Source: Actinomycetes bacterium
GTDB taxonomy: Bacteria; Actinomycetota; Acidimicrobiia; Acidimicrobiales; GCA-2861595
Assembly (NCBI GenBank): GCA_023264975.1
Contig: JAHFUS010000017.1
Coordinates: forward strand, 1 to 57,126
DNA: 57,126 nt
Direction of reading: 5' to 3'
Part shown: in pieces, positions 2,753 through 42,367 of the stretch
Numbering within the stretch: position 1 is the stretch's first letter
Layout of the letters: each line of letters opens with the position of its first letter
Notes under the pieces: generated by a model
The model's input: only the letters and a program-made list of their open reading frames with translations
Databases searched by the model: none
Told to the model about the DNA's origin: nothing
Position numbers and translations under genes: made by a program

Positions 2753-3036
2753 TGCTGCTAGCTCTCCAGTCCGAACACATCACGTTCTGGTGGATCACCC
2801 TCGGCATGGGCGCCGTGGTGGTCATCGCCGTGATCGTGCTGTTGTCGCTCCTCGTCAGCTTCGTGGACGACATCGACCGCAATCTCAAGGATGTCTGGGA
2901 CACTGCCACCCGGTTGGCGGCCAACACGGCCACCACCTGGATGCTGGGCCAGACCGTCGCCCGCACCGCTGAGCTGGGGGCCGAGATCGACCGCCACGCC
3001 GAGCTCCTCGCCGCCAAGGGGGCCGGCCGCCGATGA
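2752..3036 (+). CDS. Small single-span membrane protein (second of three)
   Basis: ATG 2752 overlaps the previous stop (TGATG). The 94-residue product has a span at about 12-36 (ITLGMGAVVVIAVIVLLSLL) and then a charged helix with regular hydrophobic spacing (VDDIDRNLKDVWDTATRLAA, later RTAELGAEIDRHAELL), consistent with a coiled coil. The end overlaps the following ATG (ATGA). The protein is unknown; it is supported by coding potential and tight coupling on both sides. Confidence 0.65.
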   Translation: MLLALQSEHITFWWITLGMGAVVVIAVIVLLSLLVSFVDDIDRNLKDVWDTATRLAANTATTWMLGQTVARTAELGAEIDRHAELLAAKGAGRR

Positions 3037-3287
3037 CCCTGCGCATCTTCCTCACGGTGCTCGAGATCCTGCTGTTCGTCGGCGTCCTCGGGTTCTTTCT
3101 CAACCGCATCACCCAGCAGTTGGTCAGCGTGAACAAGACCCTGGCCAAGATCACCTTCGGCGTGCGCGCCGTCGAGACGCAGTGCTACGCCATCGGCCCC
3201 GCCGCCGACCGGATCAACGCCAATCTGTCGTCGGTCGCCGCCGGCCTCGAAGACGCGGCCTCCCGCGCGGAGCGTTTGGCCCGCTAG
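3033..3287 (+). CDS. Small single-span membrane protein (third of three)
   Basis: ATG 3033 overlaps the preceding stop by four bases (ATGA). The 84-residue product starts with a hydrophobic segment (LRIFLTVLEILLFVGVLGFF). It continues as an amphipathic helix with the recurrent Asn-x-x-Leu-x-x-Ile pattern (VNKTLAKITFGV, INANLSSVAAGLEDAA). This pattern resembles the truncated protein at the window start. A single Cys sits at QCYAIGP. It is the last gene of the coupled trio; the next gene starts 13 bases later with its own likely leaderless promoter. Confidence 0.65.
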   Translation: MTLRIFLTVLEILLFVGVLGFFLNRITQQLVSVNKTLAKITFGVRAVETQCYAIGPAADRINANLSSVAAGLEDAASRAERLAR

Positions 3288-5721: not shown

Positions 5722-6726
5722 ATCAGCGACCTGAACGCAGTGGCCCGCGCAATGGTGGCCCCAGGTAAAGGTATCCTGGCAGCCGACGAGAGTTCGGGCA
5801 CGATCACCAAGCGGTTCGAGGCCATCGGCATCGAATCGACCTTTGACAGCCGGCGTGACTACCGCCAGGCGTTGCTCACCACGCCGGGCCTCGAGGAGTT
5901 CATCAGCGGCGTCATCCTCTACGACGAGACGATTCGCCAGTCCACCGCCGATGGCGTGGCCTTCCCCAAGCTGCTCGAGGGACTCGGCATCATGCCGGGC
6001 ATCAAGGTCGACACTGGCGCCATGCCGCTGCCCGGGTCGCCGGACGAGAAGATCACCGAGGGACTCGACGGCCTGCCCAAGCGGGTGGCCGAGTACGTGT
6101 CGCTTGGCGCCAAGTTCGCCAAGTGGCGGGCGGTGATCACCATCGGCGACGGCATCCCGACCGACTACTGCATCCAGGCCAACGCCGCCGCGCTGGCCCG
6201 TTACGCCTCCATCTGCCAGGAGGGCGGGCTGGTGCCGATCGTCGAGCCCGAGGTCCTGATGGACTGGGAGAACGACGTCGACCGCTGCGCCGAGGTCACC
6301 AAGAAGGCCCACGAGGCGGTGTTCGCCGCCCTCGACCTGCACCGGGTGGCGCTCGACGGCATCATCCTCAAGCCCAACATGGCCATCTCCGGCAAGAAGT
6401 CGGCCACCCAGGCTTCTGTGGACGAGGTCGCCGCCGCCACCGTGAAGCTCCTCACGTCGACGGTGCCCGAGTCCGTTCCCGGCATCGCCTTCCTCTCCGG
6501 CGGCCAGAGCGCCGACGTGGCCACCGCCCACCTCAACGCCATGAACAAGCTGGGTCCCCACCCGTGGCAGCTCAGCTTCTCCTACGGCCGGGCCCTTCAG
6601 GACGACGCCCTCAACGCGTGGAAGGGCGAGGCCTCCAACGTCGAGGCCGCCCAGGCCGCCCTCTACGGCCGGTCCAAGGACAACAGCCTGGCCAGCAAGG
6701 GCGAGTACACCCCCCAGCAGGCCTAG
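5722..6726 (+). CDS. Class I fructose-bisphosphate aldolase (apparent ATC start)
   Basis: The enzyme cleaves or forms fructose 1,6-bisphosphate through a Schiff base. Signature segments are APGKGILAADESSGTITKRF, FISGVILYDETIRQ, KWRAVI and the active-site Lys in IILKPNMAISGK (about residue 217), then FLSGGQSADVATAHLNAM. From 5722 the product is 334 residues, normal for plant/animal-type class I enzymes. Start problem: family members begin about 17 residues before APGKG, and a perfect aggagg (5707-5712) sits 9 nt upstream of codon 5722, but that codon is ATC. The next in-frame starts, GTG 5740 and ATG 5752, are too far from the Shine-Dalgarno. Either a rare ATC start or a sequence error (ATG to ATC) is implied. 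A terminator follows. Confidence 0.93.
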   Translation: MSDLNAVARAMVAPGKGILAADESSGTITKRFEAIGIESTFDSRRDYRQALLTTPGLEEFISGVILYDETIRQSTADGVAFPKLLEGLGIMPGIKVDTGAMPLPGSPDEKITEGLDGLPKRVAEYVSLGAKFAKWRAVITIGDGIPTDYCIQANAAALARYASICQEGGLVPIVEPEVLMDWENDVDRCAEVTKKAHEAVFAALDLHRVALDGIILKPNMAISGKKSATQASVDEVAAATVKLLTSTVPESVPGIAFLSGGQSADVATAHLNAMNKLGPHPWQLSFSYGRALQDDALNAWKGEASNVEAAQAALYGRSKDNSLASKGEYTPQQA

Positions 6727-16711: not shown

Positions 16712-16972
16712 GTGCGGACCACAGTCACCCTCGACCCCGACGTGGCCGCCAAGCTGCGGGCCGAGGCACGGGCGCGGGACATCTCCTTCAAGGAGGCCTT
16801 GAACGAGGCGGTGCGGCGCGGCCTGCGCGACGACGCCCGGCCCACCGTGCCCTACGCCGTGCCCGCCCGGCGGATGGAGGTGCGCCCCGGCATCGACCTC
16901 GACAAGGCCCTCCGGCTGGCGTCGGAGATCGAGGACGAGGAAATCGTCCGCGAGCTCAACGCCCGCCGGTGA
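16712..16972 (+). CDS. vapB: VapB-family antitoxin
   Basis: The 86-residue protein has an N-terminal ribbon-helix-helix-type DNA-binding segment (RTTVTLDPDVAAKLRAEARA, followed by helix DISFKEALNEAVRRGL). A C-terminal acidic, helical segment (IDLDKALRLASEIEDEEIV) would wrap the toxin. GTG 16712 is the start; a consensus TATAAT 6 nt upstream implies a leaderless mRNA. The stop overlaps the toxin start as GTGA. The pair should repress its own promoter through the operator-like palindrome at 16682-16698. Confidence 0.85.
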   Translation: MRTTVTLDPDVAAKLRAEARARDISFKEALNEAVRRGLRDDARPTVPYAVPARRMEVRPGIDLDKALRLASEIEDEEIVRELNARR

Positions 16973-17403
16973 ATCTGCCCGACGTCAACCTCCTGCTGTA
17001 CGCACTGGACACATCGTCGCCCCGCCACGACGTGGCCCGCCGCTGGCTGGAGGACCAGCTCTCGGGGACCGAGCCGGTGGCATTCGCCTGGGTGGTGCTC
17101 CTTGCTTTCGTGCGGCTGGCCACACAGGCGCGCGTCTTCGCCCACCCGTTGACCGCCGAGGAGGCACTCGACGTCGTCGACGGCTGGTTGGCGCAACCGT
17201 CTGCCACCGTCGTGCACCCGAGCGAACGCCATCCGACGCGGTTGCGGTCGCTGCTCACCGCCGCCGGGACGGCCGGGAACCTCACCACCGACGCCCACCT
17301 GGCTGCGCTCGCCATCGAGCACGGGGCGCTGCTGTGCTCGTGTGATGCCGACTTCTCACGCTTTGCCGGCCTGCGCTGGAACGACCCCCTACGGGCTGAC
17401 TGA
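16969..17403 (+). CDS. vapC: VapC-family PIN-domain ribonuclease toxin
   Basis: The 144-residue PIN-domain protein has the acidic metal-binding residues of the family: Asp5 in NLPDVNLLLYAL, a mid-domain Glu, then Asp in LTTDAHLAALA and in CSCDADFSRF. The DFSRF end and the following NPL pattern are typical of VapC toxins, which cleave tRNA or rRNA in cells. GTG 16969 overlaps the vapB stop. The two-gene module sits between ilvA and a convergent operon, a common position for mobile toxin-antitoxin pairs, though its composition resembles that of its neighbours. The RNA target is unknown. Confidence 0.9.
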   Translation: MNLPDVNLLLYALDTSSPRHDVARRWLEDQLSGTEPVAFAWVVLLAFVRLATQARVFAHPLTAEEALDVVDGWLAQPSATVVHPSERHPTRLRSLLTAAGTAGNLTTDAHLAALAIEHGALLCSCDADFSRFAGLRWNDPLRAD

Positions 17404-17408
17404 TCCCG

Positions 17409-17448
17409 CTGATCCCCGCAGAGGCGAAGTCCTGGGTCCTGGGATCAG
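17409..17448. terminator. Inverted repeat between convergent genes
   Basis: ctgatccc (17409-17416) pairs with gggatcag (17441-17448), leaving a 24-nt loop. A second copy of the left arm starts at 17400. It sits between the vapC stop and the convergent membrane-protein gene, whose last bases it includes. The long loop makes a terminator role tentative. Confidence 0.35.
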
Positions 17449-17948
17449 CCCTTGGCCTTGGTCGTCTTTGTACCCGACGTCCCTGTACCCGGCTTCGCTG
17501 CCTTGGCGGGCGTCGGTTCCTCGGCTGCGTCGGACCACGAGGAGGCGGCCCAGACCGCGCCGAGGGCCATGACCACCAGGCCGGGGAGCGTGTGCCAGGC
17601 GGCGACGTCGGTGGCCACGAGGTCGTTCCGGGCGTCCTTGACCAGGGGGAGATGGGTGGCGGTCATCCACAGGCCTGCGAGGAGGATGCCGAAGCCGGCC
17701 AGGAGGAACGAGCCACCGCCGGGCGCCGGTGCCGAGCGGGCCCGCACGACGGCGACGGCCGACAGGATGAGGATGAGGGCGCCGGGCGCCACATGGTCGA
17801 CGAACTCGTTCTTGGCTGCCGCGTTGAGGTCGGGACCGAGGAGGGCGTAGGGAGCGACGGCCGCCCACACGCCGACGGCCAGGCCGGCGTACGGCAGGCC
17901 CCGGCGGAGGGGACCCGGGGGCTGGGCGGCGCCAGCGGTCTTGGCCAC
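17445..17948 (-). CDS. Four-span membrane protein, SPW-repeat-like
   Basis: The 167-residue protein has four hydrophobic segments: GLAVGVWAAVAPYALLG, GALILILSAVAVV, FLLAGFGILLAGLWM and LVVMALGAVWAA. It ends in a Lys/Thr/Pro-rich cytoplasmic tail. Two W-A/T-x-x-P-like helices at equivalent positions (VGVWAAVAPY and GLWMTATHLP) recall SPW-repeat membrane proteins. The GTG start (17948) lies 6 nt after the TAA of the CooC-like gene; the Shine-Dalgarno aaagga overlaps that stop. It is therefore the last gene of the propeller-CooC operon. Function is unknown. Confidence 0.6.
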   Translation of the reverse strand: MAKTAGAAQPPGPLRRGLPYAGLAVGVWAAVAPYALLGPDLNAAAKNEFVDHVAPGALILILSAVAVVRARSAPAPGGGSFLLAGFGILLAGLWMTATHLPLVKDARNDLVATDVAAWHTLPGLVVMALGAVWAASSWSDAAEEPTPAKAAKPGTGTSGTKTTKAKG

Positions 17949-17954
17949 GATCCT

Positions 17955-18692
17955 TTAGGCGGGCACCGGCAGCAGGCTGCGGGCCAACCCGCACAGCGCC
18001 TGCACGGCGGGGGAGTCGGGGGCCAGGTCGAGTGCGGCGACGCCCTTGCGGTCGGCCTCGACTATGGCCGGATCGTCGGGGATGGCGACGATCTCGTGGC
18101 CCTCGAAGGCGGCGGTGAGCGTGGCCATGTCGGCGTCGTTGCGGACGCGGCTGGCCACGATGACCAGGCGCCCGAGCATCTTGTCCCGGGCCAGCTCGGC
18201 GGCCCGCTGGCCGACCTCGATGGACTTCGGGGTGGGCTCGACCACGACGAGCACGGCGTCGACCCGCTCGTCGGCGAGGCGGGTCAAGGTGCCGATGCCC
18301 GCCTCCATGTCGGCGATCACCGTGAGGCCTTCGAAATCAGCGGATCCGAGCAACTGCTCGGGAGAGAGCCCACATCAGAGTCAGCCAGGGCTTGGGTTGT
18401 CGATTCGGCTGACCACCGCGAGACGCACGCCGTCGGGGGCGTCAGAGCCGAAGCGGGCGATGAGGTCGTCCCAGCCGGGGGCGTGCTCCTCGCCGCCCTC
18501 GTCGAGGGACTCCCGCATGGACTCCAGGCGTTCGGTCTCGAAGTCGCCCACACCGAGAGAGAGGCCCAGATTGGGGTTGGAGTCACAGTCGAGGGCCACG
18601 ACGGTGGCGCCATGGCGGGCCATGGTGCGGGCGACGATGGCGGACGTGGTCGTCTTGCCCGAGCCACCCTTGCCGACGACAGCAACCCTCAT
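17955..18692 (-). CDS. CooC/MinD-type P-loop ATPase with in-frame UGA-Leu-UGA (candidate selenoprotein)
   Basis: ATG 18692 has gaggag 8-9 nt upstream. The N-terminal half has a deviant Walker A (VVGKGGSGKTTTSAI) and switch I-like ALDCDSNPNLGLSLG. The C-terminal half has IADMEAGIGTLTR (Walker B/switch II), VVVEPTPKSIEVG and a normal end. Both halves are in the same frame, split only by UGA at 18381-18383 and 18375-18377 in the context PSPG-UGA-Leu-UGA-CysGlySer-like; the exact downstream residues are Cys-Gly-Leu-Ser. In CooC, a nickel-insertion ATPase for CO dehydrogenase, the same place before the DxEAG segment holds a Gly-Cys-x-Cys metal site. Reading both UGA as selenocysteine gives a complete 245-residue protein. 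A hairpin lies at the correct distance. The alternative is a recent pseudogene. The paralogue upstream lacks this site. Confidence 0.7.
18346..18374 (-). promoter_or_regulatory. Candidate bacterial SECIS hairpin inside the CooC-like gene
   Basis: In the mRNA sense, CCGAGC-AGUU-GCUCGG forms a perfect 6-bp stem with a 4-nt loop (stem arms at 18356-18361 and 18346-18351). The loop begins 20 nt after the second UGA and 26 nt after the first. GGG three nt after the second UGA can pair with UCC below the stem to form a lower helix. Loop G near the 5' side and the spacing agree with what is known of bacterial SECIS elements, as far as I recall them. There is no bulged U as in the E. coli element. 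Confidence 0.5.
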
Positions 18693-18706
18693 GTGACGCT
18701 CTCCTC

Positions 18707-18728
18707 GGTCATGCGACGGTCATGCGAC
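18707..18728. repeat. Two tandem copies of an 11-bp unit
   Basis: ggtcatgcgac occurs at 18707-18717 and 18718-18728 without spacing, in the gap between the two CooC-like genes. It precedes the 16-bp repeats. Confidence 0.85.
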
Positions 18729-18732
18729 GCGC

Positions 18733-18779
18733 GGTCACGAAATTCGCCGGTCACGAAATTCGCCGGTCACGAAATTCGC
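18733..18779. repeat. Three tandem copies of a 16-bp unit
   Basis: ggtcacgaaattcgcc occurs at 18733-18748 and 18749-18764, and without its last base at 18765-18779. The third copy contains the TGA stop of the upstream CooC-like gene. The unit is AT-richer than its surroundings. Confidence 0.9.
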
Positions 18780-42031: not shown

Positions 42032-42367
42032 GCTGCCTCTCCCGTCCGGTACGCCGCCTGGATGGCGGCTGTGCTGGGCGGGCCGGTCTCGCCACTCACT
42101 CCCCGAGCGGCCTAGGCGACCGCGTTTTCTCCGTGCTCCATCGCTGGAGTCGGTGAGGACCGCTCGGATCAACGCTTCCCGTTGCATTCCGGACCGACGC
42201 TGGAGACGCCGGGCCTACGCCCTATGTCGGCCGTCCACCGGAGGCGCTGGAGGAGAAATCTCATCCACCCAGCCGGCGCCCCAGCCCCACCCGGTCGCCG
42301 TCACGACGGGCGGGCCGGCGTAAAGGGGTGGGCGCAGTGCTCGGTGCGTGGCAGGCTGCCCGCCACC
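42032..42367. other. Divergent intergenic region between the LPXTG gene and tyrS
   Basis: This 336-bp region has no convincing gene. It should contain the promoters of the leftward LPXTG gene and of tyrS. Frames continue through it on several strands, but they have no start signals. No T-box specifier-like structure was recognised for tyrS, and no clear -10 box sits at the leaderless distance before ATG 42368. Confidence 0.5.

Follow-up and report, generated by a model that had tools for sequence, protein, structure and literature searches.

CooC-1 of Carboxydothermus (3kje) is a MinD-type ATPase with a Walker A motif of the form GKGGxGKTT. Its dimer interface holds Zn, bound by Cys112 and Cys114 from each monomer, and Ni competes with Zn there (PMC6006190). 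One Ni is bound per dimer, and ATP has been proposed to release the metal (PMC6006190). A CooC-type Ni insertion ATPase is also encoded in the group 1m [NiFe]-hydrogenase clusters of Actinobacteriota, described in a paper whose main text contains no word starting with 'selen' (PMC9561532). Among prokaryotic selenoproteins, most of those characterized are thioredoxin-like (PMC13188914). The CobW-related selenoprotein NF041053 is, like the protein described here, a P-loop protein with selenocysteine (Sec, or U in motifs), but its motif is UxxC (PMC13188914). CobW is a metal-handling protein of a different P-loop family. Insertion of Sec in bacteria is associated with a bSECIS hairpin, for which the published criteria are a loop of 3-9 nt with G in the first two places, a stem of 4-16 bp, a distance of 16-37 nt from the codon and a folding energy of -7.5 kcal/mol or lower (PMC13188914).

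The window analysed here, a 57,126-nt stretch of DNA from an Acidimicrobiales genome, contains a CooC-like gene with two UGA codons at the metal site (Table 1). The minus-strand frame starts at ATG 18692, ends at TAA 17955-17957 and has 245 codons. The first-pass annotation had claimed that this frame is broken only by UGA at 18381-18383 and 18375-18377, and this held: the only in-frame stops are the two TGAs at codons 104 and 106. They lie in the context Pro-Gly-U-Leu-U-Cys-Gly, and the Walker A motif GKGGSGKTT and the DSNPNLG and MEAG segments are all intact. In a Pfam search the read-through protein matches CbiA/ParA-type models, and its best PDB sequence match is CooC-1 (3kje, E 7.7e-15). 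The Cys-x-Cys of CooC is aligned opposite U-Leu-U. The two proteins share the type of ATPase, the Walker A motif and the place of the metal pair. They differ in that Sec-x-Sec replaces Cys-x-Cys, in the absence of Ni-dependent CO dehydrogenase (Ni-CODH) from the genomes that carry the gene, and in the presence of a paralogous partner without Cys-x-Cys. A scan of the protein and seven paralogues against NCBIfam gave no model above its cut-off.

Table 1. Coordinates of the Sec gene, its parts and its immediate neighbours in the window.
Feature	Position	Strand	Remarks
CooC-like P-loop ATPase gene	17955..18692	-	245 residues, two in-frame UGA, read Sec104-Leu-Sec106
Deviant Walker A motif GKGGSGKTT	18648..18674	-	window sequence and alignment
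UGA codon 104	18381..18383	-	read as Sec; first Cys of Cys-x-Cys in homologues
UGA codon 106	18375..18377	-	read as Sec; second Cys of Cys-x-Cys in homologues
bSECIS-type hairpin CCGAGC-AGUU-GCUCGG	18346..18361	-	folding and comparison with orthologues
Partner B, paralogous ATPase, 254 aa	18767..19531	-	upstream of Sec gene; P-loop kept, Cys-x-Cys absent
167-aa protein, unknown family	17445..17948	-	downstream of Sec gene

A structure model of the protein matches MinD (1hyq, Z 23.3, rmsd 2.7 over 213 residues), and the fold is common to NifH and MinD (Z 20-23). The 50 matches examined in this comparison include no CooC chain, which neither supports nor excludes a structural likeness to CooC. 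The Sec loop itself (residues 97-109) has no confident model (pLDDT < 50). Downstream of the TGA pair, codons 107-245 differ from those of the orthologue at locus L048 by 11, 7 and 31 changes at codon positions 1, 2 and 3. The third position varies most, and thus the second half of the gene is still selected as protein.

We searched 148 genomes of the same genus, family and order, including the window's own, and found a full-length orthologue in 17, at 54-99 percent identity. Thirteen are of the UxU type, three CxU and one CxC. Codon 104 is accordingly TGA in 13 and Cys in four, and codon 106 is TGA in 16. A wider search of genome contigs added 16 close orthologues (L104-L119). They come from Acidimicrobiia and other actinobacterial MAGs and from two isolates, Pseudonocardia kunmingensis DSM 45301, whose site reads C-P-UGA, and Modestobacter sp. 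DSM 44400. We aligned the window protein with 25 of the 30 loci from the wider search, among them distant CooC proteins of Cys type. If U is counted as Cys, neither position 104 nor position 106 varies in these 26 rows. A superfamily set of 87 rows was extracted from tblastn matches to the window protein. Its in-frame TGAs fall at the Cys-x-Cys site, except for one each in L067 and L077, which are likely end-of-gene stops passed by the extraction. TGA is also the ordinary terminator of several orthologues.

The hairpin loop in the window gene starts 25 nt past the first UGA and 19 nt past the second. At -9.5 kcal/mol it meets the bSECIS criteria at both distances, and one hairpin could serve both UGAs. 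An AGUU-closed stem of 6-7 bp is found in 16/16 Sec-type orthologues (of the 17 from the 148 genomes), with the loop exactly 19 nt past codon 106 and, where codon 104 is UGA, 25 nt past it. All 29 Sec sites in these genes have a hairpin at -9.5 kcal/mol or lower, compared with 61/534 random positions in the same gene set that reach -7.5 kcal/mol or lower; some hairpin of -7.5 or lower lies in range in 4/22 Cys-type rows. The Sec sites of single-Sec paralogues have GU-containing loops at 19-21 nt on weaker stems, and 2/18 reach -7.5. The AGUU hairpin is missing from L054, the sole Cys-Cys orthologue (best -3.3). In this gene CAA CTG replaces CAG TTG and the peptide EQLL is unchanged, and the hairpin has been lost through synonymous changes. 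The Leu codon of the loop is TTG in all 16 Sec genes; across the 17 genes TTG makes up only 34 of the 395 other Leu codons.

A stem alignment of 24 sequences has 95.8 percent standard pair cells. Two pairs covary and five never vary. The 11 compensatory cells are matched in 0/500 shuffles, and pairing drops to 21-49 percent when the stem partners are shifted by 1 to 3 columns. Two covarying pairs are in themselves no more than shuffles give (405/500 reach this number), and 7/24 rows break the outermost pair. A 61-nt piece folded against shuffles showed no extra stability (z -0.65), which is ordinary for its composition. All chance figures for the hairpin are only indicative because the rows share ancestry.

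The window's genome (3.78 Mb, 139 contigs, 98.2 percent complete) encodes the machinery for Sec. A tRNA-Sec scores 67.3 bits, over cut-off, and is called SeC with anticodon tca by ARAGORN. selA (401 bits) adjoins selB (278 bits), and selD is found at 326 bits, all over cut-off. A tRNA-Sec over cut-off is present in 15/17 orthologue genomes; two draft assemblies, G005 and G034, have none. Since it is common in this order (102/148 genomes searched), finding it says little by itself.

The first-pass annotation had proposed a double-Sec protein and had argued that two stops at exactly these codons would not arise by chance. The latter held, as 13/17 orthologues keep the TGA pair. The computable checks suggested with it were also passed: homologues have Cys or U at both positions in all 26 aligned rows, close relatives have UGA at both sites (13/17) or at 106 only (3/17), selA, selB, selC and selD are all present over cut-off, and no decay elsewhere in the gene was seen in the relatives compared. 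The double-Sec reading is therefore strongly supported by comparison, without experimental proof of selenium. The link of codon to anticodon and the company of [NiFe]-hydrogenase rather than CO dehydrogenase, both described below, go beyond what was claimed.

In Modestobacter sp. DSM 44400 codon 106 is TAG and the tRNA-Sec anticodon is CTA. This tRNA scores 66.9 bits, and the only other match over cut-off is a tRNA-Ser by ARAGORN. In Pseudonocardia and in the window genome the codon is TGA and the anticodon TCA. The match of anticodon to codon was checked in these three genomes only (one TAG/CTA, two TGA/TCA). Among 112 genomes of the Modestobacter family we found seven full orthologues, with TAG at codon 106 in five and TGA in two; G222 has an eighth, which is truncated ahead of the site. 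All seven have Cys at 104 and the same hairpin. The TAG genes end with TGA in four of five cases. In L164 (G173), TAG is both the Sec-site codon 106 and the next in-frame stop, which ends the same gene. Modestobacter belongs to the Geodermatophilaceae, in which tRNA-Sec(CUA) and UAG-decoded selenoproteins have been published (PMC5330540). That paper cites an earlier report for UAG-decoded Sec, and Mukai 2016 is reportedly the original one. Our genes share with the published cases the recoding of Sec to UAG and the CUA anticodon, but the families named there are formate dehydrogenases, UGSC-motif proteins and AhpC, not a CooC-like ATPase (PMC5330540). Finding UAG together with a CUA anticodon on tRNA-Sec amounts to a natural experiment, for which another explanation is difficult to find.

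Sec occurs at the same site in three further clades of the superfamily beyond UxU/CxU/CxC. The tree has clades of UxU/CxU/CxC, UGG, UTG, [U/C]-x-C, CLCC and CLCS types, CODH-type and other Cys types, and Cys-less partners. The [U/C]-x-C clade has 15 rows, eight of them with Sec; the UTG and UGG paralogues keep Sec and have lost the second Cys position. Parsimony gives four Sec/Cys changes among motif-bearing rows, or seven with three states. The tree was made by a quick method with U entered as C, the branches of L067 and L133 are very long, and the search pattern counted the UTW row L084 and the CWC row L076 as motif-less, so that the change counts are rough. The window genome has 11 superfamily matches, nine of them at >= 80 bits, and three of these nine (C86, C45, C87) contain in-frame TGA.

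Some of the single-Sec paralogues have neighbourhoods of their own. The UTG-type genes L065, L073, L081 and L080 and the UTW gene L084 share one (5/8 UTG-type loci), which at L065 includes aconitase, aconitase_C, Iso_dh, class IV aminotransferase and HMGL/LeuA-type genes, a set of the leucine-biosynthesis type. The UTG rows L079, L082 and L085 are without the aconitase/LeuA-type neighbourhood. UTC-type single-Sec CooC-like genes are found at L069, L075, L095 and L097-L101; L098, L100 and L101 are near hydrogenase-cluster genes, and L069 is near a glucose-6-phosphate dehydrogenase and a radical SAM protein.

A Cys-less paralogue corresponding to partner B adjoins the Sec gene in 16/17 orthologue loci, the exception being L057. 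The neighbour of L063 is present in the locus listings and absent from the 87 tblastn rows. A heterodimer of the Sec ATPase and partner B is possible, and there are no interaction data. The UGG-type Sec ATPases L077 and L078 also adjoin a Cys-less partner. Between partner B and the Sec gene are three perfect 16-bp tandem repeats (18732-18779), which overlap the end of B, and 2.2 copies of an 11-bp unit (18706-18729). On the other side of the Sec gene, the 167-aa protein had no Pfam or NCBIfam match at E 0.001. Its counterpart beside the Sec gene of L048 is 70 percent identical and falls in a cluster (c8) with ORFs from seven other loci. Elsewhere in the window are a c-di-GMP-II-GAG riboswitch (42073-42188, minus strand, 52.6 bits), two overlapping small ORFs that by eye resemble a VapB/VapC pair (16712-17403, plus strand) and a tRNA-Thr with anticodon agt (5813-5894, minus strand). 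This anticodon is unusual for tRNA-Thr in bacteria.

The orthologue goes with [NiFe]-hydrogenase. A large subunit at >= 100 bits is found in 17/17 orthologue genomes and in 11/131 others. Ni-CODH over cut-off is found in none of the 17 and in three of the 148 genomes, all three of which have a CooC-like gene beside the CODH. The large subunit of L060 is closest to HofG (5aa5, 498 bits; next 163). In 12/13 tabulated cases a CLCS-type gene is 3.6-4.5 kb away from a large subunit. Only 3/13 UxU genes are within 15 kb of one, and no physical link between the Sec gene and a hydrogenase is seen in the window genome. Two small proteins in the window (2788-3015 and 3039-3284, plus strand) are homologous to the small c26/c41 proteins of hydrogenase clusters; apart from these and the two ATPases, the other hydrogenase-cluster genes queried were not found in the window.

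In the Modestobacter family the Sec gene lies inside a hydrogenase cluster of 12.7-14.2 kb in all five long loci. The cluster comprises partner B, the Sec gene, CTC-type and CLCS-type genes, a NifU-like protein, a protease and the small and large hydrogenase subunits, and a TPR gene was detected in 3/5 and a BirA-like gene in 4/5 (the BirA label rests on a Pfam match just under its cut-off). The two TGA loci of the family are short contigs with only B, the Sec gene and the CTC-type gene, and a small protein in one. This gene company resembles that of the group 1m clusters, with adjacent small and large subunits, a HybD-type protease, an Fe-S assembly protein, a TPR protein, a BirA homologue and small one-helix proteins of similar size (PMC9561532).

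HypA and HypB are both under cut-off in 12/17 orthologue genomes, the window genome among them, and both are present in the other five. Of the 28 genomes with a large subunit at >= 100 bits, 14 have only CooC, eight only HypA, five both and one neither, where CooC stands for any CooC-like match of >= 70 bits. The two are largely complementary (p 0.004); for the orthologue alone in the same genomes, p is 0.05. HypB is not complementary to any CooC-like match in the 28 genomes (p 1.0), against expectation. These tests ignore shared ancestry, and the 70- and 100-bit limits were chosen after seeing the tables. Whether CooC-like ATPases do the nickel-handling work of HypA/HypB for the HofG-like hydrogenase is an inference that could fall either way.

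The window gene belongs to a real, conserved selenoprotein family, and we consider Sec at both sites very likely, on comparative evidence and without protein or selenium data. In the proposed mechanism, Sec would replace both cysteines of the Cys-x-Cys metal site of a MinD/CooC-type P-loop ATPase (Sec-Leu-Sec-Cys). Both UGAs would be decoded by SelB and tRNA-Sec under one SECIS hairpin 19-25 nt downstream, for which there is comparative support and no experiment. By analogy with CooC-1, a soft metal ion would sit at the dimer interface between two Sec loops, or between one such loop and partner B, its release being driven by ATP. The most likely client is inferred to be a [NiFe]-hydrogenase of HofG-like kind. 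That the Sec ATPase is a selenium-ligand metallochaperone for hydrogenase maturation is thus probable and unproven. The role is inferred from the co-occurrence and clustering with hydrogenase and from the metal chemistry of CooC-1, and there are no data on metal identity, Ni binding or ATPase activity. Of the Sec-x-Sec metal site put forward in the first-pass annotation, the match in position to CooC held, and the binding and identity of a metal are only inferred from CooC-1. In a bolder version, Sec would supply every protein ligand of a Ni metallochaperone (Sec4 in a homodimer, or Sec2 with Cys-less B), which would carry Ni for high-affinity type hydrogenases on a route independent of HypA/HypB with four CooC-like ATPases, two of them (UxU and UTC types) with Sec. 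We lean slightly against this version as it stands.

Other explanations differ in how much of this reading they leave standing. The protein could be a selenoprotein and not a Ni carrier, with the Sec pair doing redox chemistry or handling Fe-S or selenide in the manner of NifH- or Mrp-like ATPases, for the Fe-S clusters of hydrogenase or for other metal enzymes. In favour of this are the fold shared with NifH and MinD, the NifU-like protein in the hydrogenase cluster and the UTG and UGG paralogues, which lack the second Cys position and so could not, with these residues only, make up the four ligands of a CooC-like site. The aconitase-family, LeuA-type and related genes at 5/8 UTG-type loci also speak for it, and suggest that other metals or clusters are possible. 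Against it, the UxU clade keeps both ligand positions and accompanies hydrogenase in genomes often without HypA and HypB, and the nearest solved structure by sequence is CooC-1. We consider this alternative less likely than not. The gene could also have Sec at 106 only, UGA 104 being a termination or low-efficiency site that gives a short product. Position 106 is indeed the more constant (16/17 versus 13/17), and Cys stands at 104 in every full Modestobacter-family orthologue. However, 19 and 25 nt are both inside the bSECIS range, and TGA 104 is kept in 13 genomes though one base change would give Cys, which makes a single Sec unlikely.

The two in-frame stops could point to a pseudogene or a sequencing error, but the same stops recur across many assemblies, isolates included, the downstream frame is under selection, synonymous sites of the hairpin are conserved, and the identity of the stop tracks the tRNA-Sec anticodon where checked. 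This explanation is all but excluded for the gene and is refuted for the family by the comparative evidence. A canonical CooC for Ni-CODH is suggested by the sequence match to CooC-1 and is very unlikely, as no orthologue genome has Ni-CODH over cut-off and the three Ni-CODH genomes have another CooC-like gene beside the CODH. We regard a role in CODH maturation as refuted for these genomes, barring Ni-CODH in closed genomes of the group. An ordinary sense meaning of UGA was put aside, since UGA falls at the metal site in the rows examined and since TGA also terminates several orthologues.

A 2026 inventory of 119 prokaryotic selenoprotein families and subfamilies (PMC13188914, section 7 and table) contains no CooC/MinD-type ATPase and no UxU motif. 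In the open-access literature searched we recognised no description of a CooC-type selenoprotein; subscription papers and preprints were outside the scope of this search. If the reading is true, the prokaryotic selenoproteins would gain an ATPase family of MinD/CooC type and a Sec-x-Sec motif served by one SECIS. The reading also brings to light sister families that have Sec at this position and whose genes would be truncated at the stop codon by standard gene prediction. It can be tested in named isolates, Pseudonocardia kunmingensis DSM 45301 and Modestobacter sp. DSM 44400. For the organisms themselves, it points to a selenium-dependent step in the making of hydrogenase in soil-type actinobacteria.
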